In this document: positions 1,334 through 39,644 of the stretch, in pieces
How the letters are laid out: each line of letters opens with the position of its first letter
Position numbering within the stretch: position 1 is the stretch's first letter
NCBI GenBank assembly: GCA_020283715.1
Contig: JAIQCW010000248.1
Location: 1 to 41,276, forward strand
Length of the DNA: 41,276 bases
Reading direction: 5' to 3'
From: Cytauxzoon felis
Lineage: Eukaryota; Apicomplexa; Aconoidasida; Piroplasmida; Theileriidae
Made by a program: the position numbers and the translations under genes
Notes under the pieces: model-generated
Databases searched by the model: none
Seen by the model: the letters and a program-made list of their open reading frames with translations, nothing else
What the model was told of the DNA's origin: nothing

Positions 1334-4159
1334 ATGACGGGGTCCAGTTTAAACACGTCGGTAAACCGTTATATATTCGAGTTAAATTTGCACAAATTAG
1401 TATTAAATGTGGATAATCCAACGTTGATACATTTTTTATGGACATCAGGTAATATTTAAATGCCAAATTATTTATATAAAAATTCCATAATGTAGGAAAT
1501 AACCGTAGTCAATCTTGTGACTCAATACTATTAGATCCATCAGCCAGCACGCATAAAATTAACCAAAAAGTTGTAATACATCACTCATTTATACGTGGCG
1601 CGAGTGATGAATTAAGTTCAACTAAGCTCAAAGTAAGTAAAAACCCATGAAATGTTATGGAGGATTTGGGTGACATTTATATAGACTAATGTGCTAATTA
1701 ATTTTGTGGTGAAAAACAACTAATAATTGTATAAAAATTATTATAATTACCCCCCCCTTAAAATTCGCCACAGACATTGGTTTTGGCCGTTACAAAGTTG
1801 GATGTGTAGCAGGCACGTTCTGTACTACGGGAGAGGTGGGAAATATACGAAGATTCCATAGATTGTGCAACACTAGTTGTCAATACTTGGTCACTCATAC
1901 CTCTAGACACTATCTAATATATCCTATACTTGTTATAAATTCATTTATTATAGGTAATAAGTACGAACTCCGGAAATGAAGTGGTTATAGGAGAATGTGA
2001 ATTGGATTTAGCAAATTTATTAGCAAATCATAACAAACAACCTGTAACGCAATCATTGAAATCCACTTTCGATCATAATGCAGCCATCAAATTCTCAGTT
2101 AATATAACAACATTTATCATCGATGGTAAGTTAACCTACAATTCATGAAGTAACTATCTTATATCTCCTTAAATTTACCTCCAAATATTGAAGGAAATCC
2201 TTAATTTCTGGGGAAACTCATGAAGATATCTCAATGACCATTGAATGAATTCTAGATGTCAATACTTCATTAGAGAGGATCTTGATGATTGTATTTAGTT
2301 TTATCATCCTCACTTCTTTTCATATTATATTCATTGAGATATCCTCATCTATGTGAAAACCACTACCTTCGACTCATCTCGTCGAGATTATGAATTATAA
2401 ATCCTGGGATAAATGAACTCTTTGTTACGTAACTAAAACAATTTTATAGATGTCAATGACACTTTAGCATCATCGAGCTTATTCCAAAATTCCGAACTTT
2501 CAGGTAATTTATCAACAACCAAAAATATTTAACGTTAATTTACTTTATAGGCGCATCAAGTGGTTTTAAATCACATGATTTGGTAAATTTTTACTTTTAA
2601 AAATGTATTCATACATTCATATAGACTGGCTTAGATAATGATAAGTTATACATGAAAATCAACAAAATGGCTACGAAATTAGCTAAAATTGAGCGTGAAA
2701 TTCAAATTAAGACTACGAAATTAAGCAAAATGAGCCGAAAAGGTTTAGAAGGATTAGGTGAATCCAGGAATAAGTTAGATGAAGAAATATTACAAAAGGA
2801 TCTTCAAATTAAGATTTTATTGAGACAGTTGGATGAAATGCATACAGCATTAGCAATTTCTCATCAAAGAGAATTGGAATTAGCCAATAATACGAATCCT
2901 GAATTATTGTATGGAAATGCAGTTAGAAAACAAGTTAATTTACCCGATTTAAGGAAGCATGCATTGAATTCCGTTGTTGACAACAAATCAACCAATGGAT
3001 ATACACCATTTTCAGGTGTTAACAGAGGTATTTAGATTTATCCCAATTATTAATATACATTTATAGTACCAACATTTGATTGTAAAGTGAATGAAATAAA
3101 CAAGCTTGGATATGTAGGGAATGATGATAAAAAAAGAAATGATTGTTTCCCTAGATATAAAAACAATGCCTTACATACCGAACAAAGAGATCAGTTTGCT
3201 AATAGAAGTGAGTTTATATCCACAAGAACTATTTTCCATGATCCATCGATGAAGTTACCTCCACGAGGTCACAACCACCGTTGGTCTTGCAGACAGCTCT
3301 TCCAATTACCTCCCCGTAAACGGTATAGCCACTCCCGGAGATCGTGGCAGTGGAATACCCGTAGCTGATCTATGGGAAGCGGAGGGGGAGGTAAATAAGA
3401 GAGCTGACGGCAGGATGGACCTCAGGTGGAGAGCTGTTTCAGGATAAAGCGATGCCAGTTGGACATATCCAGTATATACTTTATAAATTAATTTTATAGT
3501 TCCATCATCAACTGCGTTACGTACGGGTACATTGGGTGTTCCAAGGTTGTACGATTCAGAGGCAAATAAATACCGTGATATGGAACCTACACAGATTAGC
3601 CGCAATATCCCATCTGCTACTTTCATGAGGGGTAATCAGCTTCGTACGGGTTCAAATAGCGGTGGTCATCAGAAGGAAAAGGTTTGTTATTGTTTAAATA
3701 ACTCATTCATCATTACCCTTATAGGCACCAGTTGTACTAGGTGAGAAGGTACCAGGGACACGTTTGACGGCAAAATTTGACACATCATCCCAAGTAAGCG
3801 CTGTTTTAGCACCAAAGCTTGTAGCGCCAGTTAATTTTGAAACAGTTCCAACACCAACATTATCATCAAATGTACAAAAGCTAACCGCACCAACTGCTGG
3901 TATTATCACCAAAAGTAAGTAACATCAATTAATATATTATAATTTCCTTTCAGTGGCAAGAAGTAACACTTTGAACACTCCTAGCACAGCGTTGCGTGAC
4001 ATACCTGCGAATGAATTAGAGGGTCAAATTACAGGTTTGGAAAAGGAATTGGAAGAAACTCGTGTCCAATTGGCAGAGACTAAAGTTGCATTGGCTGATA
4101 TTGAAACATCGAAAGAGGTTGAGATAGACGCTATACTTAAAAAGAAGAAAACGTTGTAA
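1334..4159 (+). CDS. NT-C2 domain and coiled-coil protein, 11 exons
   Basis: Exons by consensus and phase: 1334-1448, 1496-1636, 1774-1835, 1954-2125, 2450-2503, 2551-2582, 2625-3027, 3067-3207, 3500-3681, 3725-3914, 3954-4159, giving about 565 aa. Residues 1-163 (exons 1-4) look like an N-terminal C2 (NT-C2, EEIG1/EHBP1-type) domain: RYIFELNLHKL at the start, IGFGRYKVG in the middle, and GECELDLANLL before the last strand. NT-C2 domains are usually membrane-associating. Exon 7 is a Lys/Glu-rich coiled coil with repeated TTKLSK/TKLAKI-like heptads. The middle is low-complexity and polar, and exon 11 ends in a second coiled coil (about residues 510-560). Intron 4 holds a family-2 repeat and intron 8 a family-1 repeat; the other introns are short. 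The start ATG at 1334 was preferred to the one at 1327 because only it opens the C2-like frame. The exon 2 donor at 1637 was chosen by phase. The function in the cell is not evident. Confidence 0.7.
2174..2398 (+). repeat. Family-2 repeat, copy 1 (NT-C2 intron 4)
   Basis: Starts with TTTACCTCCAAATATTGAAG, has TTCTGGGGAAAC near the start, and ends with the near-palindrome ATCTCGTCGAGAT. It has no family-1 flanks, unlike the other four copies. It is the most diverged copy: the short open frame shared by the others is broken by a TGA here. Confidence 0.75.
3245..3437. repeat. Family-1 modular repeat (NT-C2 intron 8)
   Basis: Begins with CTCCACGAGGTCACAACC (left-arm delimiter), then the GTCTTGCAGACAG hairpin module, CAATTACCTCCCCGTAAACG, the CGGAGATCGTGGC module, the GTAGCTGATC...GCGGAGGGGGAG module, GAGCTGACGGCAGGA, and ends with ACCTCAGGTGGAG. 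Left and right ends are inverted copies of the delimiter. Confidence 0.85.
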
Positions 4160-4303
4160 AGTGGAGGTAGAGATATGTGGTCGAGTGAGCGATGAATAAA
4201 ATGAAAATTTGAAGATCCCAAATCAGGATCAATTAATTTATAAACACATTAAAATAATTTAATTAATTTTATAGAATAATATATTCATCGCAATTTATAA
4301 ATA

Positions 4304-6304: not shown

Positions 6305-6722
6305 ATTCCACCCGAGGTCCATCCTGCCGTCAGCTCTTCCAATTACCTATCTCTAAAGAGTAAAGCCACTCCCGGAGATCGTGGCATGTTAACCCGGAGG
6401 AACAGGAAATGTTAACTCGGAAGAACGTAGATGTTCAACCCCTAAGAACAGGAATTATCTACCCGGTGGAACAGAGAATATTAACCCGGAGGAACGGGAA
6501 ATGTTAACTCGGAAGAACGAAGATAATCAACCCCTAAGAACAGGAATTCTACCCGGAGGAACAAAAGATGTCAACCCGGAAGAACAGGCATTTAGTTATT
6601 GGACCTCAGGTGGAGACCTCTAGTGGAATACCCGTAGCTGATCTCAGGGAAGCGAAGGGGGAAGTAAATAGAAGAGCGGTCTGCAAGACGACGAGAGTTG
6701 GATTGGACCTCGGCTGGAGTGG
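6305..6722. repeat. Family-1 modular repeat with GGAGGAAC sub-array (intergenic)
   Basis: Starts CCACCCGAGGTCCATCC, then the CAATTACCTATCTCTAAAG and GCCACTCCCGGAGATCG modules. About 200 bp follow of degenerate units built on ACCCGGAGGAACAGG, AACTCGGAAGAACG and CAACCCCTAAGAACAGG. It then has GACCTCAGGTGGAGACC, the GTAGCTGATC module, and ends at ACCTCGGCTGGAG. It fills most of the spacer between the kinase and ARO; the remaining 6723-6898 is AT-rich with no feature seen. Confidence 0.85.
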
Positions 6723-6898
6723 ATGTATGTGATTATTTATCTTCGTTGATAAGCTTATGGTCGTATTGAAGTATCTTTTATATTAATATATCGAGATTTA
6801 AAATGGGCCAATGGGTGCAATAGCCTTTGTAAATTAATTTAATTTGTTATAAAAATACATTTAAATCTTAGTTTAGATTTAGTTTTTATTGGATTTAA

Positions 6899-8438
6899 AT
6901 GGGTAACAACTGTTGTTATGGTAGATATGTGAGTTTACACATTGTCTAATGTAAGTATGACCATGTATAGAACGAGTATAAGAAGACTCTGGAAGCATTA
7001 GAGGCACAAGTCATAGATAACATTACATCATATGCTCCTATATCAGAAGCTTTAGGTCTAGATGAAGATTTAACAGATGTTGAAAAATTCGATATTGCAT
7101 TTGAAAATGGAGATATTGCTAAATTTGTAGAATTATGTAGTTCGAAAGCAACTGTATGTTGAAAAAATATTTTAACATCATCTTATTTCAATTATTTTAG
7201 ATTGAAAAATTACAAGAGAAGTTACACCCGTGGGCTGCTAATCCAAAGACTATTGGAGCATTAGCTGCTACACAATTGGCAATATTTGCCAGTAAAGAAT
7301 GTATTTTTATATATAAATCACTTTTATAATTACACATTTAATTAGATGAACCGGAATATAAAGAAGATATACGTATGGCCGGTGGAATTGTTGTATTAGT
7401 TGAATTGCTAAAGAGTAGAGTTAGTATCTCATTATATGCTTCAAGTCTTATTAATACAGGAAGATGACAGGGTCCATGCAGCAGTTGTTGCATTATCGTT
7501 TCTTTCAGCCGGAAGTAAATTTTCTCTATACTCATTATCACATTCCACAGATAACACGTGTTGCATAGAAATGTACAAATGCAATGCACTACCAGAACTA
7601 ATCAATGGAATGAAATCACCCATCGATGGCATGAGAGCAGCATGCGCACAAATATGTCGCAACATTTACCAAATAAGTACGTATCCAATTCCTGATCCAA
7701 CACCCTAATTTACCTCTCACCTGAGGTCCTTTCCTTGTCTCCACCTGAGGTTACATTCCTGCCGTCAGCTCTTCTATTTACTTCCCCTTCCAGCTCCCGT
7801 AGATCGCTTCCAGGTATTCCACTTGAGGTTACATCCAACACATCCTTAGAATCATCTTCCATCATTCCCATGATGGATGATCCATCACTACCTTCACCGC
7901 CACGATCTCCGGGAGTGGCATTACTCTTTAGAGATAGGTAATTGGAAGAGGCCTCCACGGCGAGTGGAAGAAGAGTTGGATTGGACCTCGAGTTGATCTG
8001 CAGGATGAAGTTAAGTTTGTATAAATATCTGATAGACAATATAAAAATTTCTAATCTCTTTGGATTACATTTCATTTTTATAGGTGTGGACTATCGCAAG
8101 GAGTTTTTAAAATTGGGTGGTTTGGTTAATTTGGTATTATTATTGGATTCGGGTACAGATGGTGATGATGAAGTATACCTTACACAATTGGAGGCTATAT
8201 ATCACTTGGAAGATTTTATAATGGTATGTATTGATGAATGAATTTATATATAATTTTAAAGGATGGTGTTGAAGAGATACCAGAATTCGTTGCATCTGTA
8301 AAAGCTTCAGGTGCATTACCAAAATTACAGTTATTAGAAAAGGTATATAAATTTATATAATTATATATAAATCATTAGGGTAATAATAAAGAATTATCAT
8401 TAGCAGCTAAAGGTGTTAGTATAAGATTAGTTGATTAA
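6899..8438 (+). CDS. ARO: Armadillo repeats-only protein ARO (rhoptry), 8 exons
   Basis: Exons 6899-6928, 6971-7153, 7201-7300, 7346-7419, 7460-7676, 8084-8223, 8262-8342, 8379-8438; all phases agree, giving 294 aa. The N-terminus MGNNCCYGRY has Gly2 for N-myristoylation and Cys5/Cys6 for palmitoylation. As I remember it, apicomplexan ARO begins with almost the same residues and is of similar length. ARO coats the cytosolic face of rhoptries and is needed for their apical positioning. The rest is armadillo-like helical repeats: AGGIVVLVELL, then DDRVHAAVVALSFLS, then GMRAACAQICRNI, then KLGGLVNLVLLL. Intron 5 (7677-8083) is expanded by a family-1 repeat. The stop at 8436-8438 lies 19 bp from the stop of GET3 on the other strand, so their 3' UTRs must overlap. 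Confidence 0.9.
7713..7996. repeat. Family-1 modular repeat (ARO intron 5)
   Basis: Left arm CACCTGAGGTCC and CTCCACCTGAGGTTAC, then CCTGCCGTCAGCTC, the CCAGCTCCCGTAGATCG variant module, the CCATGATGGATGATCC hairpin module (reverse orientation), CACGATCTCCGGGAGTGGC, and a right end ACCTCGAG. It accounts for most of a 407-nt intron among otherwise short introns. Confidence 0.85.
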
Positions 8439-8457: not shown

Positions 8458-11000
8458 TTATGGTAATGGTGAATGATCCAATAATATTTTAGAGAATTTT
8501 TTTATAGATTCATGACCACGAACTTCATTCTCATGTCGAGGAACAGCAACTATTTATTATAATCATCACTTAACATCAACTTACTCAAATTAAAATATTC
8601 TTGATATAATTCACGCAAATCCTCCATATATTTACGCTGTATCGATACCATACCATTATGTATAGACTGTTGATCCTTTACCTATAATTGTTAATATATC
8701 ACCAAAGCTCATACATCTACAACTGAAACACAATCCACATGTGGTCCAATCCAACTCTTCTCGTCCTGCCGTCAGCTCTCCACTCGAAGTCCAATCAAAC
8801 TCTTCTTCCACTCGCCGTTCCACCTGAGGTTAGTCCTGCCGTCAGCTCTTCCAATTACCTATCTCTAAAGAGTGAAGCCACTCCCGGAGATCGTGGCATG
8901 TTAACCCGGAGGAACAGGAAATGTCAACTCGGAAGAACGTAGATGTTCAACCCCGAAGAACAGGAAGGTAATGATGTAACCTCAAGTGGAACCTGGAAGC
9001 GATCTATGGGAGCTGGAAGGGGAAGTAAATAGAAGAGGCTCCACGCCTAGTGGAAAGAAGAGTAGGATTGTAACCTCAAGTGGAAGTGGAATACCCGTAG
9101 CTGATCTCAGGGAAGCAAAGGGGGAGGTAAATAAAGGAAGCTGACGGCAGGACGACCTCAGGTGGATATATGTTTGGATTGGTTTGTAAACATACATCTT
9201 GTATGAATTCATTGAGTATGATTTTATCATCATCGTTTAAACGATTTATATATTGTGTAACTTTATTGATGGATTTATCGAGATCTGTGTATGGATGATG
9301 GGGATTATTGGGTTTATTACTTTTGTATTTGATAATTTGATTAATAATTACATATGAACAATCGATGTCATTTTTTGCCAAATGTTGTATTAATCGTTCA
9401 GTTTCATATACACTTAAAAATTCTGGTATACATACACATATAAATGTTGTTAAATCCTATATCATTTTATAATGATACATCATTAATACATACAGGATTC
9501 TTCATCTGACTCATTGTTAATGTTAATATATGCTTCAAATTCTTAATCTTATCAAATATCTATAATGGGGTTTTATGAGGAAGAAAAAAAAATGAGGTAT
9601 GGGGTAATTTTACCTCATCTTGTGATAATTGTGAGTTTAATACAGAAAATACCTATAAATAATCAAGTATATATAATAATAGATAATAATATACCCTCAT
9701 GAAAATACCAAATAATGATTCAACTTTTAATAAATTATCTACAACTTTATCCAATACGTCAGGTAATTTAAGGAATTTAAGTGTATGACCAGTTGGAGCA
9801 GTATCAAATATAATAACAGAATATTTCATAGACTGTACAGATCTAATAATAAATATATCTATACACTTATAAAAAACTTACTGTATAAGTTCAGCAAATG
9901 ATAGTGCCTCATCAACACCAGGCAACATCTGAAACAATTCTGGAACCGTATCCAATAATGAACGAGCATCATTCAAACTAAAACCCGCATCATTCACATG
10001 TGATGAATCTACCTCCTGTACATTTAATATATCCATATACCAAAATGAGTTGTTGTATGTCTCCTCCTGAGGTCCTTTCCTTGTCTTTCCACCTGAGGTT
10101 ACATCCCTATCTTTACCACTCGCCGTGGAGGCTCTTCTATTTAGTTGTCCTTCCGCTTCCCTGAGATCAGCTACAGGCTATATAATATTATGGTTTCATA
10201 GCTTTACCGCATGTATTTCCATCCTTTAGGCAATTTCGTGTGTCTTCTTTGCAACAAGGGCATGGTATTTTTCGTATGTTTAATGAGGATATGTCTGCAT
10301 CATCATTAGTACGAATAAATAACGTACTTACAGAAGTAAATGAGTGGAGTATTATATTAGGTTTAGTGGAATCTCCTTTGGAACCAGTACATTCGTAGAT
10401 TGAATCACAACTACACATGGCACGGTTCAATTTCTCAGTATACTCCTCAACGAGTCTAAAGTACAATTTCCACATCACCCGTAGCTGATCTCAGGGAAGC
10501 GAAGGGGGAAGTAAATAGAAGAGGCCACCACGGCGAGTGGAAGGGATGGAACGAGGAGTAGGATTGGACCTCAGGTGCAGTAGACAACAGCTCACTCATG
10601 TTCTCCTGACAATATAGGCAGAGTATATAGTCATTGTTGTATAATATTGTGAGTATTATAGACTATAGTTTACATACCATGGCGTATAAATTCCTATATC
10701 CGTGTACGAGCCTGGGATAGTCTGTAAATTTTTGACCGAATGCATCGCTGAGACTATGTGCGGGATCAGTAGACAATAATAGTACCTAAATGTTAATGAT
10801 ATATTAACTTTAAAATTTAATAGACGTACAGATTCTCTAGATTCTGATAGTATTGAGGCTAAAGAGCATGCGATTGTTGTTTTACCAACTCCACCTTTAC
10901 CTCCAACGAATATCCATTTTAATGAATTTTGATTAATAAGATTTTTAATATCATTTCTTAAATTTAATACATTATTTACATTATTACAAGAACTATCCAT
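8458..11000 (-). CDS. GET3: GET3/ASNA1 (ArsA-family) tail-anchored protein targeting ATPase, 9 exons
   Basis: Exons in gene order: 11000-10830, 10785-10678, 10015-9882, 9842-9695, 9652-9614, 9559-9494, 9456-9196, 8681-8585, 8549-8458; phases agree, giving 371 aa. GET3 is a homodimeric ATPase that carries tail-anchored membrane proteins to the ER. Seen here: P-loop GGKGGVGKT (33-41), switch [13 protein letters not shown] (62-73), YAMEVDSS at the exon 2/3 join, switch II DTAPTGH (151-157), [18 protein letters not shown], and the C-terminal [16 protein letters not shown]. The exon 2/3 join skips 662 nt holding two family-1 repeats and a Cys-rich ORF; intron 7 holds another repeat. Oddity: the zinc-binding CxxC expected between INQII and [10 protein letters not shown] is absent and replaced by about 50 residues of polar insert. 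The GET3 and neighbouring gene starts are 99 bp apart, head to head. Confidence 0.9.
8735..9170. repeat. Family-1 modular repeat (GET3 intron 7)
   Basis: Carries several delimiters (TCCACCTGAGG, ACCTCAAGTGGAA, ACCTCAGGTGGA), the CCTGCCGTCAGC module, CAATTACCTATCTCTAAAG, a GGAGGAACAGG sub-array (8897-8965), both variants of the ...GGGGAAGTAAATAG module, and the CTCCACGCCTAGTGGA module. Confidence 0.85.
10062..10178. repeat. Family-1 repeat fragment (GET3 intron 2, left)
   Basis: CTCCTGAGGTCC, CACCTGAGGTTACATCC, CACTCGCCGTGGAGGC and CTTCCCTGAGATCAGCTAC in one orientation only. It is paired with a second fragment at 10477 in the opposite orientation, so the two bracket the intronic ORF as inverted arms. 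Confidence 0.75.
10188..10475 (-). other. Cys-rich ORF inside GET3 intron 2, possible gene fragment
   Basis: An ATG-started frame of about 95 codons (start at 10475) lies wholly within GET3 intron 2, same strand, bracketed by inverted family-1 arms. It holds ten cysteines, clustered as [10 protein letters not shown] and [11 protein letters not shown], and an amphipathic start ([17 protein letters not shown]). It is not needed for GET3: the exons on either side join directly into a conserved motif. Composition and Cys spacing recall the Cys-rich ORF at 48-975, so it may be a fragment of such a family, but I see no alignable segment. It may equally be noise. Confidence 0.25.
10477..10585. repeat. 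Family-1 repeat fragment (GET3 intron 2, right)
   Basis: ACCCGTAGCTGATCTCAGGG, ...GAAGGGGGAAGTAAATAG, CCACCACGGCGAGTGGA and ACCTCAGGTGCAG. It is in opposite orientation to 10062-10178. Confidence 0.8.
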
Positions 11001-11099: not shown

Positions 11100-13892
11100 A
11101 TGGTCATTCAACGCAGATTAAGTGATAAAAAAAGTAGATTCACCTGTAAAAAAATCACATTCCTAGAATATCAACGATACAAACTTAATGAAGTCACCAA
11201 ATATATTACTCAAAAAAAACGACAAACCAAGATACTCTTTGTACCAAATCGTATGTTTTACATCAGAATTAGTCATAGTAAACTATGTCTACATCCCTCT
11301 TTTCCACTAACTGTTCAACCGTTGGTCGTCTTGCAGACAGCTTCCACTCGAGGTCCATCTTTTCCATTGCATGGAGCTCCTTTATTTAGTTATCCCTTCA
11401 CTTCCCTGAGATCAGCTGCGGGTTCCACTTGAGGTCACATTCTCTGATCCTCCGGGTAGAATTCCTGTTCTTAGGGGTTTAATATATTCGTTCTTCCGGG
11501 TTAACAAAATACCGAGGATGATCTACGGGAATCCGAGGGGAGGTAATTGGAAGAAGGCCACCACGGCGAGTGGAATGAAGAGTAGTACTGGACCTCAGGT
11601 GGGACCCGTAGCTGATTTCAGGGAAGCGAAGGGTGTGGTAAATAGAAGAAGCTCTCTGCAAAGGGAACAAAGTAACTTTAGACTGGATCATTCTTCTGTG
11701 ATGTTAATATCATTAATTTATTATAATATTTAGTTGTGGATGAGGTTGATTCATTGACACAGGAGTCAATGCAGAGGATATTACATCAGGGTAGTTTATT
11801 TCATCAGACATCATTAGTAGAGAGACCGGTGGTAAATGATCTTATAGAGTCATTGATATTTGATGGTGTATTTAATATAAATAATTTGAATAATCATGAG
11901 ATATCATTGTTATTTTCATTAATAATTAAATTACCGAATCTTAATAAATCATTACTGAGTAGATTATTTAATAAAATTTTAATAAAATTTGATACATTAT
12001 CAAAATGGGAATTATCACATGTGCTTTATTGGATAACTCAGATCAATGATCCATTAAATAATGAATTCACAAGTCTTATAATGCCAAGGGTACTATCGAT
12101 GATTAATGGTAATATCCATCAGTTATCTGGTACAAATGTAGCTAAAATTTCATATTTTTTATGTAAAAATGGTATAAAAAATCATTTATTAATATCAAAT
12201 TTAATTAAATTATATCCTAATGATATAGAATTTAATGATCAATTCTCTAGGGATATCAAATTAGTTATATATTCATTGATGTCTTGTGGAATATATGATC
12301 GTCCATTCCTCAAATTAGCATCAGATTATTACAATGGAATACTCATGAAGTTAAATACTGAGAAATCAGTTGAAGAATATAGTACGATTGGAATTTTTAA
12401 TCCATTTGATGATGACATCGATGATATAATACTGGATGTTGAAGGTCTGGTGGAATTAGTGGATTGTAATTCATACTTTGGATATAATAATAAGAATTTA
12501 TTAATAAACTTCAATAAATATATAATAAACTCATTAAATGAATTTATAAATGATGGGGAGATTGGAAAATTCTACGGTAGAGGAAAAATTAACAAAAGTG
12601 AGGAATTTTTAAATAATTTGGTGAAATTAATAAAAAGTGGTAAATTTATACGAAATAATAAACTTGACTTAACAAAATTAATATTAAATTTGAAAATCAA
12701 ATCTAATAATAATAAATATTGGACCATTAATACAATTGTCACAATCGGTAATAAATACACGACCAATACACAGTTATACACAAAATTTATCGCATATATA
12801 CAACCATTTCTAAATGATAATGATCACTCTGAATTAATACCAATATTAAATAAATATCATGTACCCATCAACAATAAATTTATCACATCCAAAGTGAAGG
12901 CAGTGAACAAATCATTGTATACCGAAGGTTCTACACTCGAGGTCCAATCCTACTCTCCTTCCACTAAGCGTGGAGCCTCCTCCAATTACCTATCTCTAAA
13001 GAGTAGAGCCACTCCCGGAGATCGTGGCGGAGGTGATGGTGGTGAGGATGTAACCTCAAGTGGAAGTGGACTACCCGTAGCTGATCTCAGGGAAGCGGAG
13101 GGGGAGGTAAATAAAGAAGCTGTCTGCAAGACGGCCTCAGGTGGAACGCCTATTGGAAAGACCTCAAGTGGAGAAGCTGACGGCAGGACGACCTCATGTG
13201 AAACTCTTACTGTTAAATCATCGTCTAATATGGAGGATATTCTATTGAAATCAATAAGGGATCTTCCAGATGTTTACAATTGGAATGAGATTAAATATGC
13301 TCTTGGATATATTAGATCTGAGGGTCGCGTAGATTTTATACCCATGGTTTATACATTATACCAAGAATGCTGTATTATATTTGAAGATTTATCGAGTCAA
13401 GTCCACGATATCGTCGATATTTTATGTACGTTAAGAGATGATGATGTGATAATCGTCGACAATTCTATAAGGTTACTTGGATATTTACTGGATTGTGATT
13501 TACAAAATGACTCTATCAACGTTAAAATCTTCTTAGATGTGCTCAATTTATATACAAAATGTAAATTTCATCAAGTAACTACACCGATATTAAACAGCTG
13601 CTACACTGAGGACAATGACTTGACGTCAATACTAGAAAATTACTTGATGAAGTATTCAATAAAGAAGACGGAAATACATTCTGAAACTGTAGATGATGAC
13701 GCTTATAGAATATTCTTTGATATCTTTGGCATTAAATATCGCAACTTCTGTACAATAGAATCCATAGTGGATATGTTGGATCATTTAAAGCTCAGAAATG
13801 ACCTTATTGGAAATGTTATTAAATGTAATTATAATTTAATCAAATTCATCACTTATAACCATATTATCAATAATATAAATATAAATAATTAA
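11100..13892 (+). CDS. Helical-repeat protein, possibly organellar RNA-binding (HPR/FASTK-like), 2 exons
   Basis: The large open frame begins without an ATG right after an acceptor (TATTTAG, ending 11733). The ATG-started frame at 11100-11277 ends in a phase-1 donor (A|GTAAAC) that fits, so I join exon 1 11100-11277 to exon 2 11734-13892, giving about 778 aa. Exon 1 encodes a basic, Arg/Lys-rich N-terminus that could be an organelle-targeting sequence. The body is all-helical with repeated Leu/Asn-rich units (for example HEISLLFSLIIKLPNLNKSLLSRL, split by repeats of similar spacing). This recalls heptatricopeptide/RAP-type mitochondrial RNA-binding proteins of apicomplexans, but no RAP domain is visible at the C-terminus, so the family is a guess. 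A family-1 repeat is translated in frame at 12931-13203. Intron 1 is also filled by a family-1 repeat. The stop is 54 bp before the Aquarius start. Confidence 0.6.
11308..11672. repeat. Family-1 modular repeat (intron 1 of helical-repeat gene)
   Basis: Contains GTCGTCTTGCAGACAGC, CACTCGAGGTCC, CTTCCCTGAGATCAGCTGC, CTCCGGGTAGAATTCCTG, a GTTCTTCCGGGTTAAC stretch of the GGAGGAAC sub-array in reverse, CCACCACGGCGAGTGGA, ACCTCAGGTGG and the GTAGCTGAT module. Confidence 0.8.
12931..13203. repeat. Family-1 repeat translated in frame (helical-repeat gene)
   Basis: Begins ACACTCGAGGTCCAATCC, has CAATTACCTATCTCTAAAG, CACTCCCGGAGATCGTGG, ACCTCAAGTGGAAG, the GTAGCTGATCTCAGGGAAG module, GCTGTCTGCAAGACG, and ends at GAAGCTGACGGCAGGACGAC. 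It is read as [23 protein letters not shown] and REAEGEVNKE. The frame before and after it is the same, and no stop occurs through about 90 codons. Confidence 0.9.
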
Positions 13893-13946: not shown

Positions 13947-16900
13947 ATGTCTATGAATACTTATAATAATATAACATTAAAAGAGATACAAGGACATGAA
14001 TTTTATAAGTTGTTATTGAAATCTATAGATGAGAGTATACCGGAGTTAGGAGGTATTAATGACCCAGAGGGTCTATTAAAATGTAAAATATCGAAGGATG
14101 TAGTAGAAATTTATAAATTATTATACGAAAATGATTTTAATAAGAGATTGTTGACCATTATTGAATATTCAAATTATTTGATGCAGTTATGGCCATGTTT
14201 AACATTAGAATCATTACCATTGATGGTCAAGTTAGATGAAGACCTATCAAAGGAATATAATAACGTTAGAAGATGCATTGTAATGACATGTATATGGGCA
14301 ATAATTGAAGAGTTTTCAAGTGGTCGTGATGATTATATTGATCTACTATTGAATATCACCAAAGGTACGTCGACCAAAAGTTACTTACATCTACATCATA
14401 CCCTCTCTACTCACTCACTTTTAAATTTATTTTAGATTCGTGTAATTCTTTCGAGTGTATATTTTTCAATGCAGCACAATTGTTAATGTTAGAGTCATGG
14501 AAAAATGATATATGTGATTCAAGTGACTTCAGTGATCGTTTAATAGTACTGGAGCAACGTGTACTGGTGAGATTCTTTGTAATATGTTATCAGAGGATTG
14601 AAATTGTAAGTATAAGGCGATGTTGTATGAAGTTGTTATCACCGTCCATATGGTTACATTTGAATGATGACGTTAAAGATCATTTAATCTTTGACAATAA
14701 TAAATTATCGAAAATTCTATACAGTAAATCAATAAATTCACTGAATCATAACTATAATGATTTGAATTTCAATGATTACAACCACCTCAACGATGTCTAC
14801 TCATCCACCAATGATATTACAGTAGACAAATTAAATAAAATCGCAAATTTCATACTCGTCAGAGACTTTGTCAATTCATTACTCAACCACTTTATCTATA
14901 TACTAGAAGATGGTATCAATCTCGATGTCTTTAATAACCAAACGAACTCTCCACCTGAGGTTACAACCAGTGTTCCACTCGCCGTGGAGGCTTCTCCACC
15001 CGAGGTTAGTCCTGCCGTCAGCTCTTCCAATTACCTCCCCGTAAACGGTAATGCCACTCCCAGAGATCGTGGCGAAGGTAGTGATGGATCATCCATCATG
15101 GGAATGATGGAAGATGGTTCTAAGGATGTGTTGGATGTAACCTCAAGTGGAAGTGGAATACCCGTAGCTGATCTCAGGGAAGCGGAGGGGGAAGTAAATA
15201 TAGAAGGCACCACGCCTAGTGGAAAGTCCTCAAGTGGAGAAGCTCCATACAATGGTATAGGTGAATCCAATGATAGAAATGGATCTCTTATCGATGGTAA
15301 CGATAGCTCTCACATTCAATCATCTACTGGCAAGGGTGGAAATATGAGATCTGATTCTCGTAAACGATCGATTGCTGGTGGAACTCGTAGTAAAAAGAAG
15401 AAACGTTCAAACGATTCTGATAAAGACTCTATGTATATGATGAATCGTATAATGTTATGTGAGAATTATTTGGAATTTATGATTGATTTATTAAGTCAAT
15501 TATATACACGTAGGATAATTAAGCCATTGATCGATGTCAAATTGATATATGTACGTTGTGCTCAGTCTTTATTATATAATGATGATAAGAATGGTATGAT
15601 ATTTAAGGGTATGGTTGATATATTGGAGTATTATATCAATTTTTCTATTAATGAGGAATTAGGTATACCTATGGAATATAATGACATCTTGGAGGCATAT
15701 TATAAGAAATTTAATGAGTTTCAACGCTTATGCTATACAAAATATAAAGATAATGATGTTTTATATAATTTTTATTTATTATCTTTATATGAATTAAATG
15801 ATGTTGAAAGGATTAAAAATATGCTTTCAAAGGTTGATTTAACACTACTCATTAAGCTACTCGCTGATTTACATGTAATTTCAATTGAAGATGGTACTAG
15901 AGATAATGATGGGGTTAACTCTTCTAATGAGGTAACGGGATTACAGGAAAATTTATTGAAATTAAGACCGATTCAATTGATACCTATGAAACGTAAGAAA
16001 AGTACAAGTGTAAAATCATTCTTTATTCAAGTACTACTGAATTATTTAAGTAAACCTGTTGATATAATCGATGTATTGAATAAAACATCCGTATACCCCA
16101 CAGAGGAGATGTTATTATCATCACGATATATACCACCTATGGATTATATTAAATTGTCATCATTATCATTATATAAATTGAATTTACAATATTTAACATT
16201 ATTTGATTACGTATATAGAAATTTCAAATTATATCAATTAGAATCATATCATCAAATAAAAACATCTATACAAGAAGCTATTTATCATACTAAACCATAT
16301 TCTATCTTTGACGATAGTAAAAGTAACTATCAAGATTTAATGGGGTATAATGGGGATAAATTACACCACAAATCATTACCTGGAGCTGATATGGGGGAAG
16401 GAAATAAAAGAGATACGATAGTTAATAATAATATTGATAGTAATATGGGGTCATCTGGGGTTAATTATCCCAATAATATCAAAAATGGTGCAATTATGAA
16501 TTTACCCACTTTGACGAAATTTGGACATAATTATAGAATGGCAATAGAGATTGAGAATATAAATATAGTTAATATTAATAATTTGTCTAATGTAAATATA
16601 GAAATAATTATAGATACAGTGAAAGTTAAAGATTATCAAATTAGAAAAGAATGGCAATCATTAAAGAGATATGATATAATTTATATGGTATATATTAATA
16701 AATCATTAGTCAATAATAATAAATATATACACCAATATGATATACCAGAAGAATTCGCATTGGATTATGGGGTAATTTCTATAAGATGTGGGGAAGTTGT
16801 TAATTTAATTGATGAAGAAGATAATATAATATCAGATTTAAATCCATATGATATTAAAAAACCAATAGGATTTAAAATTAAGATAAATACATTAATAGAT

Positions 16901-23276: not shown

Positions 23277-23580
23277 CACTCGAAGTTCATTCCCACCTGA
23301 GGTCCAATCCTACTCATCTTCCACTCGCCGTGGTGGCCTTCTCCACCTGATGTCGTCTTGCAGACAGCTCTTCTATTTATCTCCCCTTCCAGCTCCCGTA
23401 GATCGCTTACAGGTATTCCACTTCCACTTGAGGTTACATCCTCACTACCTTCTTCATTGCCACGATCTCTGGGAGTGGCTTTACCCTTTAGGATAGGTAA
23501 TTGGAAGAGGCTCCACGCCCAGTGGAAGAGAAGATGAAGTATAGTGGAAGAAGAGTTGAATTGGGCATCGAGTTGGGTAG
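23277..23580. repeat. Family-1 modular repeat (intergenic before AP-2 alpha)
   Basis: CCACCTGAGGTCC, CACTCGCCGTGGTGGCC, GTCGTCTTGCAGACAGC, CCAGCTCCCGTAGATCG, CCACTTGAGGTTACATCC, CACGATCTCTGGGAGTGGC, CTCCACGCCCAGTGGA. The rest of 23228-23857 is AT-rich leader with no gene seen. Confidence 0.85.
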
Positions 23581-23857: not shown

Positions 23858-26800
23858 ATGAAGGGACAATATATACGTGGTTTAGTAAATTTTATATCAG
23901 ATTTACGTCAATTAAATACCGAGAATGAACGTGAATATCGTATTAAAGAAGAAATTGCTAAGATTCGTATAAATTTTTCTGGTAAAACTAGTGATTATGA
24001 TAAGAAAAAAAATATATTGAAATTATTATATATACAAATGTTAGGTTATGATATAGATTTAGGTCATTTAGAATCTGTACAATTATTAGCATCAGATAAA
24101 TATTTTGATAAAGCTACTGGTTATATGGGTTGTGAAATGTTATTAGGTGATTATGAAGAATTATATTGTTTATGTATTAATACTACATTAGAAGATCTTA
24201 ATAGCTCTATTGAACCTGTATGTTCATTAGCACTTACATTTATTGCAAATAGTCATTGTATTGAAATGAATGAAAGATTATCTAATGAAATTATTAAAAT
24301 GACTACTAAATTACCAATAGAAAATGAATATCTACGTAAAAAATTATATATGTGCTTATTAAAAACTTATAAATTAAATCCCCAACTTTATAATATCAAT
24401 GAATGGTATCAAATCGCATTACAAGTATTGAAATTTGAAAAAGATATCTATTGTATATTATCAATCTGTAATTTTCTTATACCACTACTTGAACATTTAC
24501 CCAAAAATTGGGAAGAATCCATCAATCATCTCACCAATGTACTCTGGAATGTATCCAACGATAATGTCTCCAGTGAATACAGCTACTTTAATATCAATGC
24601 ACCATGGCTCATCATCAAAATACTCTATATACTCTCCATCGTACCAAAACAAGAAGATGCAACGTTAGTTTTATACCATATCCACCGAAGGTTATACAAC
24701 CTGACATTCCACTTGAAGTTACAACCTCTATCTTCTTCATCCTTCCTTCGTCTTGCAGACAGCTTCTCCAGTTGAGGTTACATCCTCATCTTCCACTCGC
24801 CGTGGTGGCTTCTCTATTTAGTTCCCCCTCCGCTTCCCTGAGATCAGCTACGGGTGATTTTTGATATTTTACACAAATAACAAGAGGAGGATAATTTGGA
24901 TAAAGATGATGGATATAAGGATAAATTAAAATGAATCAAATTACAAGTGTTATAGAACCCATATGTAATAAATGGACAGGTACTGATGCTCAACATACTG
25001 CATCTGTATTCCGTCACAAACTCGCAATGTTTCTTACGGGATTTATAATGTTAACACCTCATAGGATTGCCATTTTATGTGCTCCTCATCTCGTGAAGCG
25101 ATTCCATTTACCACTTGATAAGATCCCATTATTCATCTACAAGTTCTTCAGTTCTATGGAGTTGGCGAGTTTAATTGGGACCACGATACAAGTTGTATTA
25201 ACAGTAACAATAACTGCAATATGTAAAAGTATGAATACAAATGGATTATTTGGTGTAAATAAAAAACTTGGTGGTTATAATTACGTGGGTAAAACATGGA
25301 ATGATCCAGTTCCTGCTGATGTTGATACCGGTATTACTCAACTCAAAGCACTATTTTCTATTATAATTGCATGGATTATGTTTTCCAGTAGTATACTCAC
25401 GTACATTTTCTTTGTTACTGGTGATGACTATGGTCATTTTAATTTATTCTTCTGGAGTGTTATTTTTAATGCCTTTGCAAATGGTATGTACTCATCCATT
25501 TCCTTTGGAATAAATACAAATACAGCTATTTATGCAGTTGGTCTACCCCTCTCTGGTGCCTTTACATTTATTTTTAATAAGATTTGTCGTTCTATCCATA
25601 ACAGATGGGATTGGGATGATTATGATTACACGAGAGTTCAATTACAGATTATATTCACCATATTAATCTTATTTATAACTGCTGGTTGGTGGAGTTTTGA
25701 TCAGGTTTGCCAAATATATGGAAAAAATGGTGAAGCTAAAGGTACTGGTAGAAGTGATACTACTGTTGCTGCAACACTTCCTGGTCAAACCAGTTTTGGT
25801 GAACTTTTTGATACTACAAATTCTCAAGGTATATCTCACTGGTCTCCAATATTGATGTTGGGTTCTTCTCTTGGCTCAGTTTACGCCTTTTATCCTGCAA
25901 TTACACCGTACATGCTCATGGATATTGATGAAGCCAACGATCTCGATCAATGGATTCAATTCATATCATCCATTCCAACACTTGTAATAGGATTCCTAGA
26001 TGAGTTTGATGTAGGACCGGGTGGAGTTACAATGAGTGGTAATTGGTACAAAAGAAGGTGGTGGCATCCTATAGGTTGGGGTCCATTTATTCCATATATT
26101 TTATGTCTCCACATCCTCATATTACCACTTCCGCCACGATCTCTGGGAGTGGCTATACCGTTTACGGGGATGTAAATAGAAGAGCTGACGGCAGGACGAA
26201 GAGAGGTGGAACTGGAAAGAGAGTTGGATTGTATTTCAAGTGTAATGACTATTTGAATGTACACATATTTTTTTCCAATAATGATTGATATATATAGTTG
26301 TTTATCTGTGATGACGAGTTGTTTTAAGACGTTATTGGATCGTATGGGTAATATTGGTTCGACGAATAATGTAGCGAAGGAGCAGAATCGTAATATTAGA
26401 TTGATGAATTTGAGTATATATATGATAAAAACTGCTATATTATTTGAATGTATAAGAGCAATTGTTAAATGGTATAGTTGTTTAACATCGATTACAGCAG
26501 AAGATATTTGTGATTCAATACGTCATTTATATTCATCATCGGTAATATTAAATTCATCTAATAAAAAACACCACATTTATAATTATAGATGCCACAAATA
26601 CGACTCGTTACACTAGAAATCATTGAAGAACTTATCAAAGTACCTCAAATGTTCTATATTATTAAAAATGATGTCGAAATCATTATACAATACCTCAATG
26701 ATAACGATCCCGCCATCAAAAGAAGAGTAAGTCTTATCACATACATTATAATCCACATGAACTCTTATCATCTACCTTCTACTCCTCTCATTTCGTCCTG

Positions 26801-29800
26801 CAGACAGCTCTCCACCTGAGGTCCAATACGCCTCTCTTCTTCCACTCGCCGTTCCACCTGATGTCGTCTTGCAGACAGCTCTTCTATTTACTTCCTCTTC
26901 CAGCTCCCATAGATCGCTTCCAGGTCTCCACCCGAGGTTAATTGCTAATCTCGACGAGATAAGACTAAAGTGACGTAATCTATGTTTGTTGACATATCTC
27001 AATGAATATAAATTGGAATTAAGTGAGCATGAGTAAACTAAATAGAATCATCAAATTCCTGTTGAATGAAGTATTGACATCAGAAATACATCCAATAGTC
27101 ATTGCACAATCTTCATGGGTTTCCCCAGAAATTGAGGATTTCCTTCAAATTTTGGAGGTAAAATGAAGTTAGTGAAATTAGTGACTGGACCTCGAGTGGA
27201 ACCCGTAGCTGATCTCAGGGAAGCGGAGGGGGAGGTAATTGGAAGAGCTGTCTGCAAGACGACCTCAGGTGGATTGGACCTCAGGTGTAGTGGAATCAGA
27301 GTTGAATTGGATCTTGGGTATTAATGTATGATTAAATATATATATAACATATAGTCTACGAAAATATTGCATTTAATATGTGATTCATTTAATTGGGAGA
27401 TTATTGTTCCGGAGTTGTTATCAACGGCTAGGCATTCTGAAATATCATTACAAGAGTATATAATACCATTGATATGTGATAGTATTGATAAAGTAGCAAC
27501 AAAGAATAGTTTATATATAGATATATTTTTTAAAATTGTTATTTATGCACCATTTGTATATAGCAATTCGATATTTTCATCATTAGTTGCTACACTTTAT
27601 AAAGAAAATTCTACCAAATTCCAAGTATGTTGTAATCATTACTCAAATATTCATACCCTAGATCACTGTCGTTAATAAATGTATACAATGCCTAATGGAT
27701 CCTAATCTAGAAATCAATGATACACTCATACGGTACGTCTATAACAATCACACCAAATAATCACTACCTTCACCTTTTCTACTCTTCTTTCCACTAGGCG
27801 TTCCACCTGGGGTCCAATCCAACTCCTTTTCCACTCGCCGTGGCGGCCTTCTCTATTTACTTCCCCTTCCAGCTCCCATAGATCGCTTCCAGGTTCCACT
27901 TCCACCGAGGTTACAACAGTACACTCTTCGCTGCCACGATCTCCGGGAGTGGCTTTACTCTTTAGAGATAGGTAATTAGAAGAAGCCACCACGGCTAGTG
28001 GAACACTGGTTGTAATCTCAAGTGGAGAGCTGACGGCAGGACTAAGAGAGTTGGATTGTACATCGGTTGTATGACCTTCAATTTTGTTATTGATGTTATT
28101 ATATTTATATATATAAATGATATAGGATATGTGCGTATGTATTGGGTGAATATGGTTATTTATATGATGAGATGAGTTTGATGGATCAGATACGTTTATT
28201 AGAGAAGTATTATGTTATATCATCTGAAGAATGTAAGGGTATTATTATTACTTCATTAAGTAAGATGGCTAATTATGATAATAGTTTATTAAAATATATT
28301 CAACATATATTTGAATATTATATGACATGTTCTGATATTAATTTACAAATTCGTATATGTGAAGTATTAAAAATGATACGTATAGATATAGATTTATTTA
28401 ATAAAGTTCATACATTAAAGAAAAAAGATGATATAGATAATAAAAATAAAAATAAAAAAGAATCTATTAATAAATTATCTTATACATCTAATGATACCCC
28501 ATTATCTAAAGAACGTATTGGGCAACATGGGGTAATTTATACCCATAATACTAATATAGATACAATATTAATAAATAAAAATATAATATTACAATATAAT
28601 AATAAATTAGAATGTAGTATATTTAATAATAAGAAATGTATAATATATAAAGATGATATAATAACAATAGAAATAATACAAGCATATAAAGAAATAAATT
28701 CTAAAATATTAATAAAATATACAAATAATATAAATACAACAATAAAAATAAAAAAAATAAAATTAAGAAAACCCCAGAAGGTTTATTATATGAATTTCAT
28801 AATGAATTAGACGGTTATATATTAAAATCTAATGATGAAATTGGTCATAAATTATCATTTATATTAATAAATGAATTTATAAAATTCCCCATTTATACAA
28901 TAGAATATAATTTTTATGATAATTATAAAAAAATTTCATTAGAATTACCTATTAATATACATAAATTCTTATCACCAACACCAATTGATTTACAACGTTT
29001 TAATAATATATGGAATACATTAAATAATTATAATATTAATAATAATTTCAATACTAATCTTGATTATAATCATATCGCAAATCTATTAGAAACACATCTC
29101 AATTTCTCATGCCTCAATATCAATAATAAAATCTATACTTGCGCTAGCGGTGTCAAAGGATATAAACATCAACAAATCATCATACTCGCCATCTTCTATA
29201 ATACAACACAGTATGTTTTCTATATTACATACATTCACTCGAAGTCCTGTACTACTTTCGTCCTGCAGACAGCTCTCTACCTGAAGTCCATCTTTTCGTC
29301 TTGCAGACGGCCTTCTCTATTTACTTCCCCCTTCGCTTCCCTGAGATCAGCTACGGGTATTACACTTGAGGTCTCCACCTGAGGTTATAAATCTAATCTC
29401 GTCGAGATAAGTATAAAGTGACGAAATCCATGTTTGATCAGATATCTCAATGAATATAAATTGTGATAAAGTGAGGTTCAGTAAACTCAATACAATCATC
29501 AAATCCTTTTCAATGAAGTATTGACATCAGAAATACATCCAATAGTCATTGCACAATCTTCATGGGTTTCCCCGGAAATTCAGGATTTTCTTCAAATTTT
29601 GGAGGTAAAAATGAAGAAGTGGAAGACGGTGATTGGACCTCAAGTGGAGACCTCAATTGGAACCTGGAAGCGATCTATGGGAGCTGGAAGGGGAAGTAAA
29701 TAGAAGAGCTGACGGCAGGATGGACCTAAGGTGGGGTGGATAGGACATTGTGTATATATTTTTTCATTTATTTTTGTATTGATATGAGTATTTTATGATG

Positions 29801-32494: not shown

Positions 32495-32747
32495 TCAACC
32501 TGAAGTTACAACCTTATCTTCTCCAACTTTCGTCGTCTTGCAGACAGCTTCTCTATTTACTTCCCCCTTCGCTTCCCTGAGATCAGCTGCGGGTTTTCCA
32601 CTTGAGGTCTAATGACTACAGTTCTGCCACGATCTCCGGGAGTGGCTCTACTCTTTAGAGATAAGTAATTAGAAGAAGCTGACGGCAGGACGACCTCAGG
32701 TGGAACGGCGAGTGGAAGAAGAGTTGGATTGAACTTCATGTTGATAA
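32495..32747. repeat. Family-1 modular repeat (intergenic)
   Basis: AACCTGAAGTTACAACC, GTCGTCTTGCAGACAGC, CGCTTCCCTGAGATCAGC, CCACTTGAGGTC, CACGATCTCCGGGAGTGGC, GAAGCTGACGGCAGGACG, ACCTCAGGTGGAACGG. It is the last copy before the repeat-free FAINT block. Confidence 0.85.
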
Positions 32748-33024: not shown

Positions 33025-33057
33025 TAATGATATATGATTCAATCATGGATTTAACTA

Positions 33058-37245: not shown

Positions 37246-38697
37246 TTAATCAATACGTAAATCCATACGTACAGGATCATGAACTATATCATCACATATT
37301 ATAACCTCAGCAGAATCACCTGTAATAATAATATTGAAACAATAAATATAGTCAGTCATATATTTACAATCTCTTCATACTCCACTTGAGGTTAAAACCA
37401 CTATCTTCTAGTACAACCTCTCTTCGTCCTGCAGACAGCTCTTCTATTTACTTTCCCTCCGCTTCCCTGAGATCAGCTACGGGTAGTCCACTTCCACTTG
37501 AGGTCTAATCTCACTGAGATACGACTAAAGTGACGGTTTCTATGTTTGTGAGGATATCTCAATGGATATAAATTGGAATGAATGGAATTCAGTAAACTCA
37601 ATACAATCATCAAATTCCTTTTCAATGAGATATTGACATCAGTAATTCATCCATTAATGATTCCACAATCTTCAGTAGTTTCCCCAGAAATTCAGATATT
37701 CCTTCAAATTTTAGAGGTAAATGTGAAGTAGTGGAAGAAGAGTATGATTGGACTCAAGTGGATTACCTGGAAGCGATCTACGGGAGCTGGAAGGGAAAGT
37801 AAACAAGAGAGCCTCCACGGCGAGTGGGAAAGAGGTAGATTGGACCTCGAGTGGAGTGGATATTAATTTTCAATGTACAAGATGTTCTTATGTATAAGAT
37901 TATATATTAACATACCGGTATAGACATCTCTTTCAACGGCGGCAACGAGTGAGTTTTTGACGATATTAACGAGTTCTTCTGGTGATTGTATATTTGGTTT
38001 ATTGATAAAATTAAGTCCACACATCTATATAAGATTGAATTGATATGTAATATGAATATACTTGGCTATCTAATGAAGAGGCTAGTATTAAAGCACTGGT
38101 TCCTTGTGCACTGTAAGGTTCTTTATGGAATGATCCGGTAGCATCGAATGTAAAGACAGCTCCATTTCCTATGAATAATATAATGAATAGTTCATTATAT
38201 GGTTTATACCTTCTTCATCTATTCCGCAGATTGTATTAAATGTATAATATGGAAAGAATCTTTTACTGTATAATATTGTAGATAACAGTTGTACTACGGC
38301 TGTAATGGATGGGTCTTTATGATGTGTAAAACGATATAATTCAATTTGTCTCTAAAGAAAATGATAAAAATTCTATGATATAAACATACAGTTAGAGCAG
38401 AGTGTAATGAAAGCATATCAGCTTGCATACCGGAGGTACCCAAAACACATTTATCAGTCCTATAAATTGATAATTTATTAAATATATATTAATAATAATA
38501 TACAATTTGACTAATTTACTAGAATTTCTTGTATGAATAGTATATCCAGCTGATAATCTGGTATCAGCTGCAATGACAGCATAGTTCTTCCATGAAGCAG
38601 CTAATACAGTACTAAATTATAGTATAATATATAAAAATATATAATAAATTTACCCTCCATTATTAATATATGGATTATAACCTTGATTTAATTCCAT
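37246..38697 (-). CDS. PSMB1: 20S proteasome subunit beta type-1 (beta6), 7 exons
   Basis: Exons in gene order: 38697-38654, 38611-38504, 38459-38390, 38351-38210, 38168-38062, 38024-37916, 37319-37246; phases agree, giving 217 aa. It is a structural, non-catalytic beta subunit of the 20S core in nucleus and cytosol. Seen: PYINNGGTVLAASW, DTRLSAGYTIHTRNS, SKLVKLTDKCVLGTSGMQ, LLSTILYSKRFFPYYTFN, GIDEEGNGAVFTFDATGS and AAVERDVYTGDSAEVIICDD, which follow animal PSMB1 almost without gaps. The exon 2 donor at 38503 was chosen because it restores the KLTDK motif in phase. Intron 6 (37320-37915) is enlarged by a family-2 repeat between family-1 arms. The other introns are 37 to 45 nt. Confidence 0.93.
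37378..37506. repeat. Family-1 repeat arm (PSMB1 intron 6)
   Basis: CTCCACTTGAGGTTAAAACC, TCGTCCTGCAGACAGC, CGCTTCCCTGAGATCAGC and CCACTTGAGGTC. Confidence 0.85.
37507..37722 (-). repeat. Family-2 repeat, copy 5 (PSMB1 intron 6)
   Basis: TAATCTCACTGAGATACG ... AGGATATCTCAATGG ... GTTTCCCCAGAAATTCAGAT ... TTTTAGAGGTAAATG. On the plus strand it keeps the open frame SVIHPLMIPQSSVVSPEIQI. Confidence 0.85.
37748..37862. repeat. Family-1 repeat arm (PSMB1 intron 6)
   Basis: GGACTCAAGTGGATTACC, GCGATCTACGGGAGCTGG, GCCTCCACGGCGAGTGG and GACCTCGAGTGGAGTGGA. It is the opposite orientation to 37378-37506. Confidence 0.85.
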
Positions 38698-39644
38698 TTT
38701 ATATAATATTAATAATGACATGGAAACACCAGAACTCCATCATGAAGTAGCATATATTAAATGTAAAAGTTAAAAGAGATTAATTATATGTATAATTATA
38801 GATAGTGTGGGATCCTTATGGGTAAATATGAAAATGATAAAGTGGACAATTGTATTATTTTACATGAACCTTTAAACGATTGATATACGGGATCCATTAT
38901 TAACTCTCTAACGTATATCAAGAAGATAATTATTATAATCTACTCAAAGTACCTTATAAAGAACACCATATGGATATCGAAAACATAAAATAATAATACA
39001 ACCTTTAATAATCATTATAGGACCTCTCTAATAACCTTTGAATTAAAATGAAAATAATAATCTTATCTCATTCTAATCACAATACATACACGAATAACAA
39101 TAATATAACTCTAATACTCACAAATCATACTGTGTCATAACTCCACCTGAGGTTACCTCTACCGAAGGTAATACAACCTCTGTTCGTCTTGCAGACAGCC
39201 TCATCTATTTACCTCCCCCTTCCAGCTCCCGTAGATCGCTTCCAGGTTCTACACTTGAGGTCCAGTACTACATCACGTTCTTCCGGGTAGAAGTCATTCT
39301 TAAATTCATAAGTCCTCATATGGATAATTGAGATCAAGAGGACCGAGGAAGTTTCTTCAGTATAAATGTCAACCCGGAAGAACGAAGATGATCAACCCCT
39401 AAGAACAGGAATTCTACCCGGAGGAACAGACATTACCTCCGCCACGATCTCTGGGAGTGGCTTTACTCTTTAGAGATAGGTAAATAGAAGAAGGCTCCAC
39501 GCCGAGTGGAAGAAGAGGTGGATTGGACCTCAGGTGGAGGTGGAAGAAGAGTTGGATAATTACGTAGACCTAACGGTCATCGGATGAAGTTTCAGAGGAA
39601 TGGTATTCAATTACGTTTATTTGTTAATGAATTATTTAATGTAG
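38698..39644. other. Intergenic between divergent PSMB1 and downstream of cyclin
   Basis: 38698-39138 is AT-rich with only short, unsupported frames. 39139-39558 is a family-1 repeat. 39559-39644 is the 3' flank of the cyclin gene. Confidence 0.45.
39139..39558. repeat. Family-1 modular repeat with GGAGGAAC sub-array (intergenic)
   Basis: CTCCACCTGAGGTTACC, CGTCTTGCAGACAGCC, CCAGCTCCCGTAGATCG, CACTTGAGGTCC, GTTCTTCCGGGTAG and, after a unique stretch, AACCCGGAAGAACG / CAACCCCTAAGAACAGG / ACCCGGAGGAACAG. These are followed by CACGATCTCTGGGAGTGGC, CTCCACGCCGAGTGGA and ACCTCAGGTGGAGG. Confidence 0.85.

Follow-up and report, generated by a model that had tools for sequence, protein, structure and literature searches.

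The 41,276-nt contig JAIQCW010000248.1 of the piroplasm Cytauxzoon felis (the window; contig 145 of a 181-contig, 8.62-Mb genome) is densely populated by an interspersed repeat that has a single two-armed, inverted scaffold, occurs in thousands of copies in the nuclear genome and differs from copy to copy in the sequences that fill its slots. No association between the slot contents of the two arms is detectable, copies embedded in open reading frames (ORFs) that extend past both ends are nearly all read in one sense frame, and two such inserts in the gene for the spliceosomal helicase Aquarius are absent from its orthologs. We interpret the repeat as a non-autonomous, palindromic selfish element, comparable to the Rickettsia palindromic elements (RPEs), that is rewritten by short-tract gene conversion, a reading to which we assign a probability of about 0.57.

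Scaffold and abundance of the element

The sample analysed consists of the window and 200 kb from two further contigs, C9 and C4, which were picked for length and hence non-randomly (241 kb in total). A first-pass annotation, made from the letters of the window, had described over 20 blocks composed of a small set of shared modules and interspersed in introns, intergenic DNA and exons. The blocks, their modules and their placement (in intron-like, intergenic and open-frame DNA) are borne out: window self-BLAST returns 25 blocks of the family between 3265 and 39545, and the eight quoted modules have 8-50 matches each (at most one mismatch, both strands) compared with means of 0-0.05 in 20 dinucleotide shuffles, the 8 matches of GATGGATCATCCATC being four near-palindromic places, each counted on both strands. 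The reversed delimiters at the start and forward delimiters at the end that the annotation had remarked upon are found in 64 of 171 unmerged blocks of the sample (delimiter or extended form, >150 bp).

The free order of modules that had been proposed, by contrast, is not confirmed, the cores keeping fixed places and orientation within blocks. A full copy is laid out as <D linker <L, loop, D> P> linker D>, where D is the delimiter; each arm runs from the centre outward as core, linker and delimiter, with an L-type core (variants L and l) on one arm and a P-type core (P and p) on the other as an inverted pair, and the short loop between the arms usually holds one further delimiter, at times an N module or F3 units. 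When neighbouring blocks <260 bp apart were joined, 88 of the 150 merged blocks proved to be a single inverted L-P pair and 12 an inverted P-P pair; a simple L-L pair was never seen, single arms numbered 35, and the last 15 blocks took other forms or lacked a core. The blocks fit one scaffold, close to the end-to-end consensus that the annotation had itself set against its idea of combinatorial shuffling; what survives of that idea is real variation among alternative fillings of the slots.

Two other repeats, F2 (~230 bp) and F3 (a unit of ~37 bp), are enclosed by blocks. Ten of the 11 F2 copies found by BLAST in the sample lie between inverted P-arms, and F2 was detected in nine of the inverted P-P pairs, one of which has an extra P core. 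F2 copies are 72-81% identical to the solo copy at 2168-2397, and the cores, whose matches were restricted in advance to 20% mismatch, differ from their own majority sequence by ~7%. An AT-rich repeat that adjoins element blocks (window 20659-20858 and 32913-33035; L009 5350-5630; C9 126901-127103; mutually 78-88% identical) is perhaps another loop type like F2. A motif resembling ACATTTCGGTTAT was seen just beyond three block ends (C9 near 34405, 35732 and 41045).

A genome-wide search with exact core words, a check that the annotation had proposed, gave 1,269 occurrences of GTAGCTGATCTCAGGGAAG and 2,530 of CACTCCCRGAGATCGTGG, with none for either reversed control, and leads to estimates of roughly 3,000 for the L cores, 3,900 for the P cores and 3,000-4,000 for element copies in the whole genome. 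The 171 blocks occupy 36.8 kb, i.e. 15% of the sample; because the sample is denser than the whole genome (50 and 102 exact core words, where the rates for the genome as a whole predict ~35 and 71), the genome share was scaled down to about 11%. Elements are mostly 200-500 bp long and have a G+C content of 50%, versus 29% for the remaining DNA. About a tenth of a compact genome would then be one element, against a background in which apicomplexan genomes are reported to be poor in mobile elements (PMC9141347).

Mosaic slot contents among copies

With the order of the scaffold fixed, the variety of the copies lies in which sequence fills each slot, and the copies are mosaics. The five linker types (Q, G, H, h and I) are used without difference in L-arms and P-arms (p 0.14) and without association with the core variant (p 0.18); nor are the left and right linkers of one copy associated (p 0.50, 79 copies), or the L/l with the P/p variants (Fisher p 0.54, 86 copies). 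Across 131 sites in 86 two-armed copies, mean r2 at 1-3 bp was 0.22 in the L-arm and 0.17 in the P-arm, short-range values that are inflated because linker columns were aligned across unlike linkers, and it fell to 0.026 and 0.015 beyond 50 bp. Between the arms it was 0.0114, versus 0.0120 when permuted, with 135 of 200 permutations reaching the observed value. As the core variants are multi-base haplotypes, we infer recombination between copies rather than repeated mutation.

The scale of this decay fits a process of the type known from Babesia bovis as segmental gene conversion, in which tracts average 109 bp and homology at the breakpoints spans 2-35 bp or is sometimes absent (PMC7485966). 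In the mechanism envisaged, new sites would be reached via an activity encoded elsewhere or now lost, which might be transposase-like or consist of templated repair at breaks, and the copies would then be rewritten by short-tract, microhomology-guided conversion of the B. bovis kind. Copies landing in exons would be retained mainly where they are read in the conserved open sense frame, and would then form extra stretches of host proteins. A more ambitious picture, in which thousands of one-scaffold copies of a palindromic coding repeat form a genome-wide conversion network that uses the parasite's own segmental conversion machinery to trade both slot contents and orientation and so furnishes even conserved proteins such as Aquarius and CAF1 with interchangeable peptide inserts, is one that we put forward tentatively and regard as rather doubtful.

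Two other sources of variety were considered. Renewal of the palindrome by copying from arm to arm is not supported, because a single element can combine P with p cores and carry linkers of different types. Site-specific inversion at the 12-bp delimiter, the sequence around which shuffling had been imagined, fares no better, a tandem or outward-facing L/P pair being present in only 2 of 150 merged blocks. No clean empty site was found within the 241 kb, and one duplicated stretch was informative (C9 62.7-64.3 and 124.0-125.8 kb, flanks 74-88% identical): elements occupy two roughly matching places in it, each matching pair being in opposite orientation and with different linkers, which reflects either inversion together with conversion in place or repeated insertion. 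The most alike pair among the 86 two-armed copies (L011 and L012) lies 1.7 kb apart in one ORF (C9 28727-30739), a likeness that suggests local copying.

Copies within reading frames

Of 137 blocks at least 120 bp long, 23 (139-594 bp, about 46-198 residues) were considered ORF-embedded, their frame staying open for at least 120 nt past both ends; 22 of these are in one sense frame and one is antisense. With 200-nt flanks, 15 of 16 two-core copies are sense and one is antisense. The same sense frame is the commonest open one in the other 70 two-core copies (28/70; antisense frames 8, 6 and 5), and the sense share under the stricter flanks (15/16) exceeds that among open strand-assigned frames of the other copies (28/47; p 0.004). 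The distance between L and P cores is a multiple of 3 in all 16 ORF copies versus 33 of the other 70, and the linker variants found in ORF copies preserve the frame, as judged by eye.

The host genes are diverse. Pfam matched 11 of 17 host ORF pieces from outside the window (six were without match), the matches being CAF1 ribonuclease (two pieces), kinesin, CAF1B/HIR1, LCCL, MFS, gamma-tubulin complex, WD40, ABC1, beta-lactamase-like and FAINT; in a single CAF1 ribonuclease gene two element copies fall within the span of the Pfam match. In the window, ORFs 14480-18838 and 18897-20345 encode Aquarius, with best matches in Theileria equi and Babesia. Alignment with eight piroplasm proteins out of 103 homologs reveals that the inserts at sites 1 and 2 (Table 1) are absent in all eight, T. 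equi having eight other residues and B. bovis four at the insert places, and that site 3 falls in a stretch variable among the aligned relatives. Proteins of this organism may bear repeat-derived inserts that annotation could mistake for domains or introns.

Two word-based searches for relatives of the peptide gave none at E <= 1 among 514 and 13 candidates. ORFs 23858-24775 and 24931-26175 terminate inside antisense element copies (24708-24775 and 26121-26175), so that certain proteins may owe their ends to the element; the both-ends rule above does not include such cases.

Folding of blocks and modules

The description of blocks as imperfect inverted repeats is in keeping with the fold of window positions 14948-15240 as single-stranded DNA (-50.9 kcal/mol versus a shuffle mean of -36.0, z -3.9). 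The further claim that several modules are themselves hairpins holds in part. Among ten short pieces folded as RNA, each against 200 shuffles, most shuffles fold less well than GTCTTGCAGAC, CCACTCGCCGTGG, CCACTAGGCGTGG and ACTCTTTAGAGA (equalled by 15, 6, 19 and 16, respectively), whereas the hairpins made by CCATTGCATGG, CCGTAAACGG and GATGGATCATCCATC are matched by 47, 102 and 48 shuffles, respectively; the complement of the CTGACGGCAGGACG module gave no fold, and the two long core words fold no better than shuffles. A hairpin kept in every slot was rejected, because this is true of some linkers and the L stem, and other slots fail or only equal shuffles.

Alternative explanations

An ordinary foldback or miniature inverted-repeat transposable element (MITE) family, with mosaicism as a by-product and an autonomous DNA-transposon partner that is lost or too diverged, would account for inverted arms without an enzyme in them and for thousands of copies across all compartments. 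As the first-pass annotation had stated, we found neither a transposase nor a target duplication: Y1_Tnp (PF01797), DDE_3, rve and DDE_Tnp_4 had no match in the genome, a search of just four families that leaves room for this explanation, with hAT, piggyBac, MULE, Helitron and others not searched, while DDE_3, DDE_Tnp_4, rve and Y1_Tnp matched in 3, 1, 6 and 5 of 14 control genomes. Direct repeats were not in excess at the flanks of 64 two-ended blocks (mean longest direct match in 15-bp flanks 3.30 versus 3.19, sd 0.09, for mispaired flanks; ragged ends could mask a short one), and block ends are ragged around repeated delimiters. Together with the lack of association between arms, and with a survey of 64 apicomplexan genomes that reports no class II transposons (PMC9141347), these results make a MITE family unlikely in our view. 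A retrotransposon or retroposed short interspersed nuclear element was rejected, since both RVT_1 matches in the genome sit in one telomerase ORF; an IMG/VR pattern scan gave 0 matches.

Two further explanations take the genic copies as their starting point. Were these introner-like elements, i.e. spliced introns, they would have an alveolate precedent in Amoebophrya, where introners with inverted repeats and predicted hairpins are described (PMC7789003); words like GTAAAT and TTGCAG can be seen by eye in the arms, and our open-frame rule would miss spliced copies. A spliced insert would not need to keep the same frame open into both neighbours, as 22 of 23 copies do, bearing in mind that the open frame was the rule of selection, and the presence of both orientations between same-strand ORFs (15 antisense, 7 sense) is unlike an element needing stranded splice sites; we consider this origin improbable. 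Less probable again is a domesticated coding module; the element would then be a peptide cassette retained for what it does to proteins, and the non-coding copies debris or a donor archive. The dominant open frame of the ORF copies, shared as the commonest by other two-armed copies, and the frame-preserving linkers are what such a cassette would predict, but 114 of 137 blocks lie outside long frames (109 of 164 by a looser rule), a codon-position signal is absent and, as noted, the peptide searches yielded no relative.

The selfish, RPE-like element rewritten by gene conversion is, on balance, preferred, although several observations weigh against it. Movement is itself deduced, with neither enzyme nor target duplication to attest to it. 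The L-arm decay of r2 is uneven (0.071 at 11-25 bp, 0.078 at 26-50 bp), the absence of association was tested in ~80 copies, which gives limited power, and C9 copies separated by <3 kb resemble each other slightly more than chance would predict (10/500 permutations). The frame evidence, including the multiple-of-3 distance, is partly circular, because blocks were picked by their open frame; the looser rule, which accepts any frame that runs for 100 codons from stop to stop across the block, gave 44 sense and 11 antisense among 164 core-bearing blocks. Neither codon-position bias (third positions 65/157 versus 214/616, p 0.14) nor the synonymous share (p 0.21) reached significance, and 'exonic' here denotes placement in open frames rather than in transcripts.

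Relation to known systems

The closest parallel in behaviour is with RPEs, short palindromic repeats many of which lie in frame in genes and all of which contain an ORF encoding a conserved peptide (PMC10969869). The likeness extends to palindromic sequence, in-frame presence in unrelated protein genes and one preferred frame (for our element, in open frames rather than transcripts); unlike the ~150-bp RPEs, which are bacterial and number 44 copies in R. conorii, the present element is in a eukaryotic genome, has thousands of copies and shows slot mosaicism. The word-based peptide searches revealed no sequence relation to RPEs, no direct comparison with RPE sequences having been made. The element works like an RPE, yet we do not file it as one. 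What coding palindromes are to Rickettsia, this element would be to a eukaryote, which is very unexpected in this parasite group.

Repetitive extragenic palindromes and bacterial interspersed mosaic elements (REP/BIME) are mosaics in which palindromic units alternate in orientation and are accompanied by a set of short motifs; they are bacterial, extragenic and tied to Y1 transposases. Mosaic palindromic units are common to both, and the Y1 family PF01797 was not found in the genome studied here. Foldback elements and MITEs likewise have long terminal inverted arms (with ragged ends here) and are non-autonomous; the present element differs in that no target duplication, fixed termini or transposase were found and that its arms reassort.

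The segmental conversion of B. bovis ves genes similarly involves short tracts, little required homology and mosaics from many loci, but in one antigen gene family (PMC7485966), whereas here it would act on interspersed repeats genome-wide. The element may serve as a natural record of short-tract conversion beyond antigen genes, and as a case of repeat copies evolving as a recombining population, not as a tree. Inverted repeats or dyad symmetry in coding sequence are also reported for Nematomorpha mitochondrial genes (PMC6649704) and PARCELs (PMC2996958); the former are mitochondrial repeats coding conserved residues and the latter tandem 25-residue repeats, and neither is described, in abstract or outline, as an interspersed two-armed element. 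Amoebophrya introners share an alveolate host, inverted repeats and transposon-like spread, but are introns with 3-5-nt direct repeats at their boundaries (PMC7789003), whereas in the present ORF copies a single frame continues across the insert. The apicomplexan survey lists elements resembling long interspersed nuclear elements in T. equi and some Babesia, and none in C. felis, T. parva, T. annulata or T. orientalis (PMC9141347). Titles and abstract openings of the literature matches listed contain no description of this repeat.

Copies in the window and neighbouring ORFs

Table 1. Element copies and the solo F2 repeat in the window
Positions	Strand	Feature	Remark
2168..2397	+	F2 repeat without arms	sole armless one of 11 F2 copies in the sample
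3245..3432	+	element copy, l-type L-arm then P-arm	left edge by eye
6306..6729	+	element copy: L-arm, loop with three F3 units, P-arm	downstream of kinase ORF
7716..7997	-	element copy: p-arm, N loop, L-arm	intron-like stretch (by eye)
8733..9167	+	element copy with L, p and P cores	F3 in loop
10062..10177	-	solo P-arm	
10478..10572	+	solo P-arm	
11327..11673	none	inverted P-arms	F3-like loop by eye
12931..13202	+	element copy	within ORF 11736-13892, sense frame
14948..15258	+	element copy, Aquarius site 1	in reading frame; missing from 8 aligned relatives
17677..18060	+	element copy, Aquarius site 2	in reading frame; missing from 8 aligned relatives
18577..18917	+	element copy, Aquarius site 3	frame broken at homopolymer run (18800-18840), sequencing error or real frameshift
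19005..19165	+	element copy, Aquarius site 4	in frame in second Aquarius ORF; outside ortholog alignment
20376..20605	+	L-arm block	F3-like unit by eye; 3' of Aquarius
20972..21302	+	two tandem P-arms	N in between
22344..22863	none	inverted P-arms	around F2 (22515-22736)
23292..23573	-	p-arm and degraded L-arm	L-arm by eye
24681..24855	-	solo P-arm	
26121..26242	-	solo L-arm	l core
26787..27307	none	inverted P-arms	around F2 (26939-27168)
27794..28064	-	element copy, p-arm then L-arm	
29234..29740	none	inverted P-arms	around F2 (29394-29609)
32495..32744	-	element copy, P-arm then L-arm	
37380..37860	none	inverted P-arms	around F2 (37506-37722)
39142..39275	-	p-arm block	
39364..39545	-	L-arm	F3-like units (by eye)

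An Rfam scan of the window at the gathering score gave no match to any RNA family, and a search of the assembly did not find COX1. Elsewhere in the window are a cysteine-rich ORF at 48-971 and, across 33924-37104, three ORFs with secretion-like N-termini as judged by eye; ORFs 51-971 and 33924-35039, the two tested from these groups, had no Pfam match. FAINT (DUF529) domains are present in one ORF of contig C9 and, like the best matches of the Aquarius ORFs, mark the genome as piroplasm-like.

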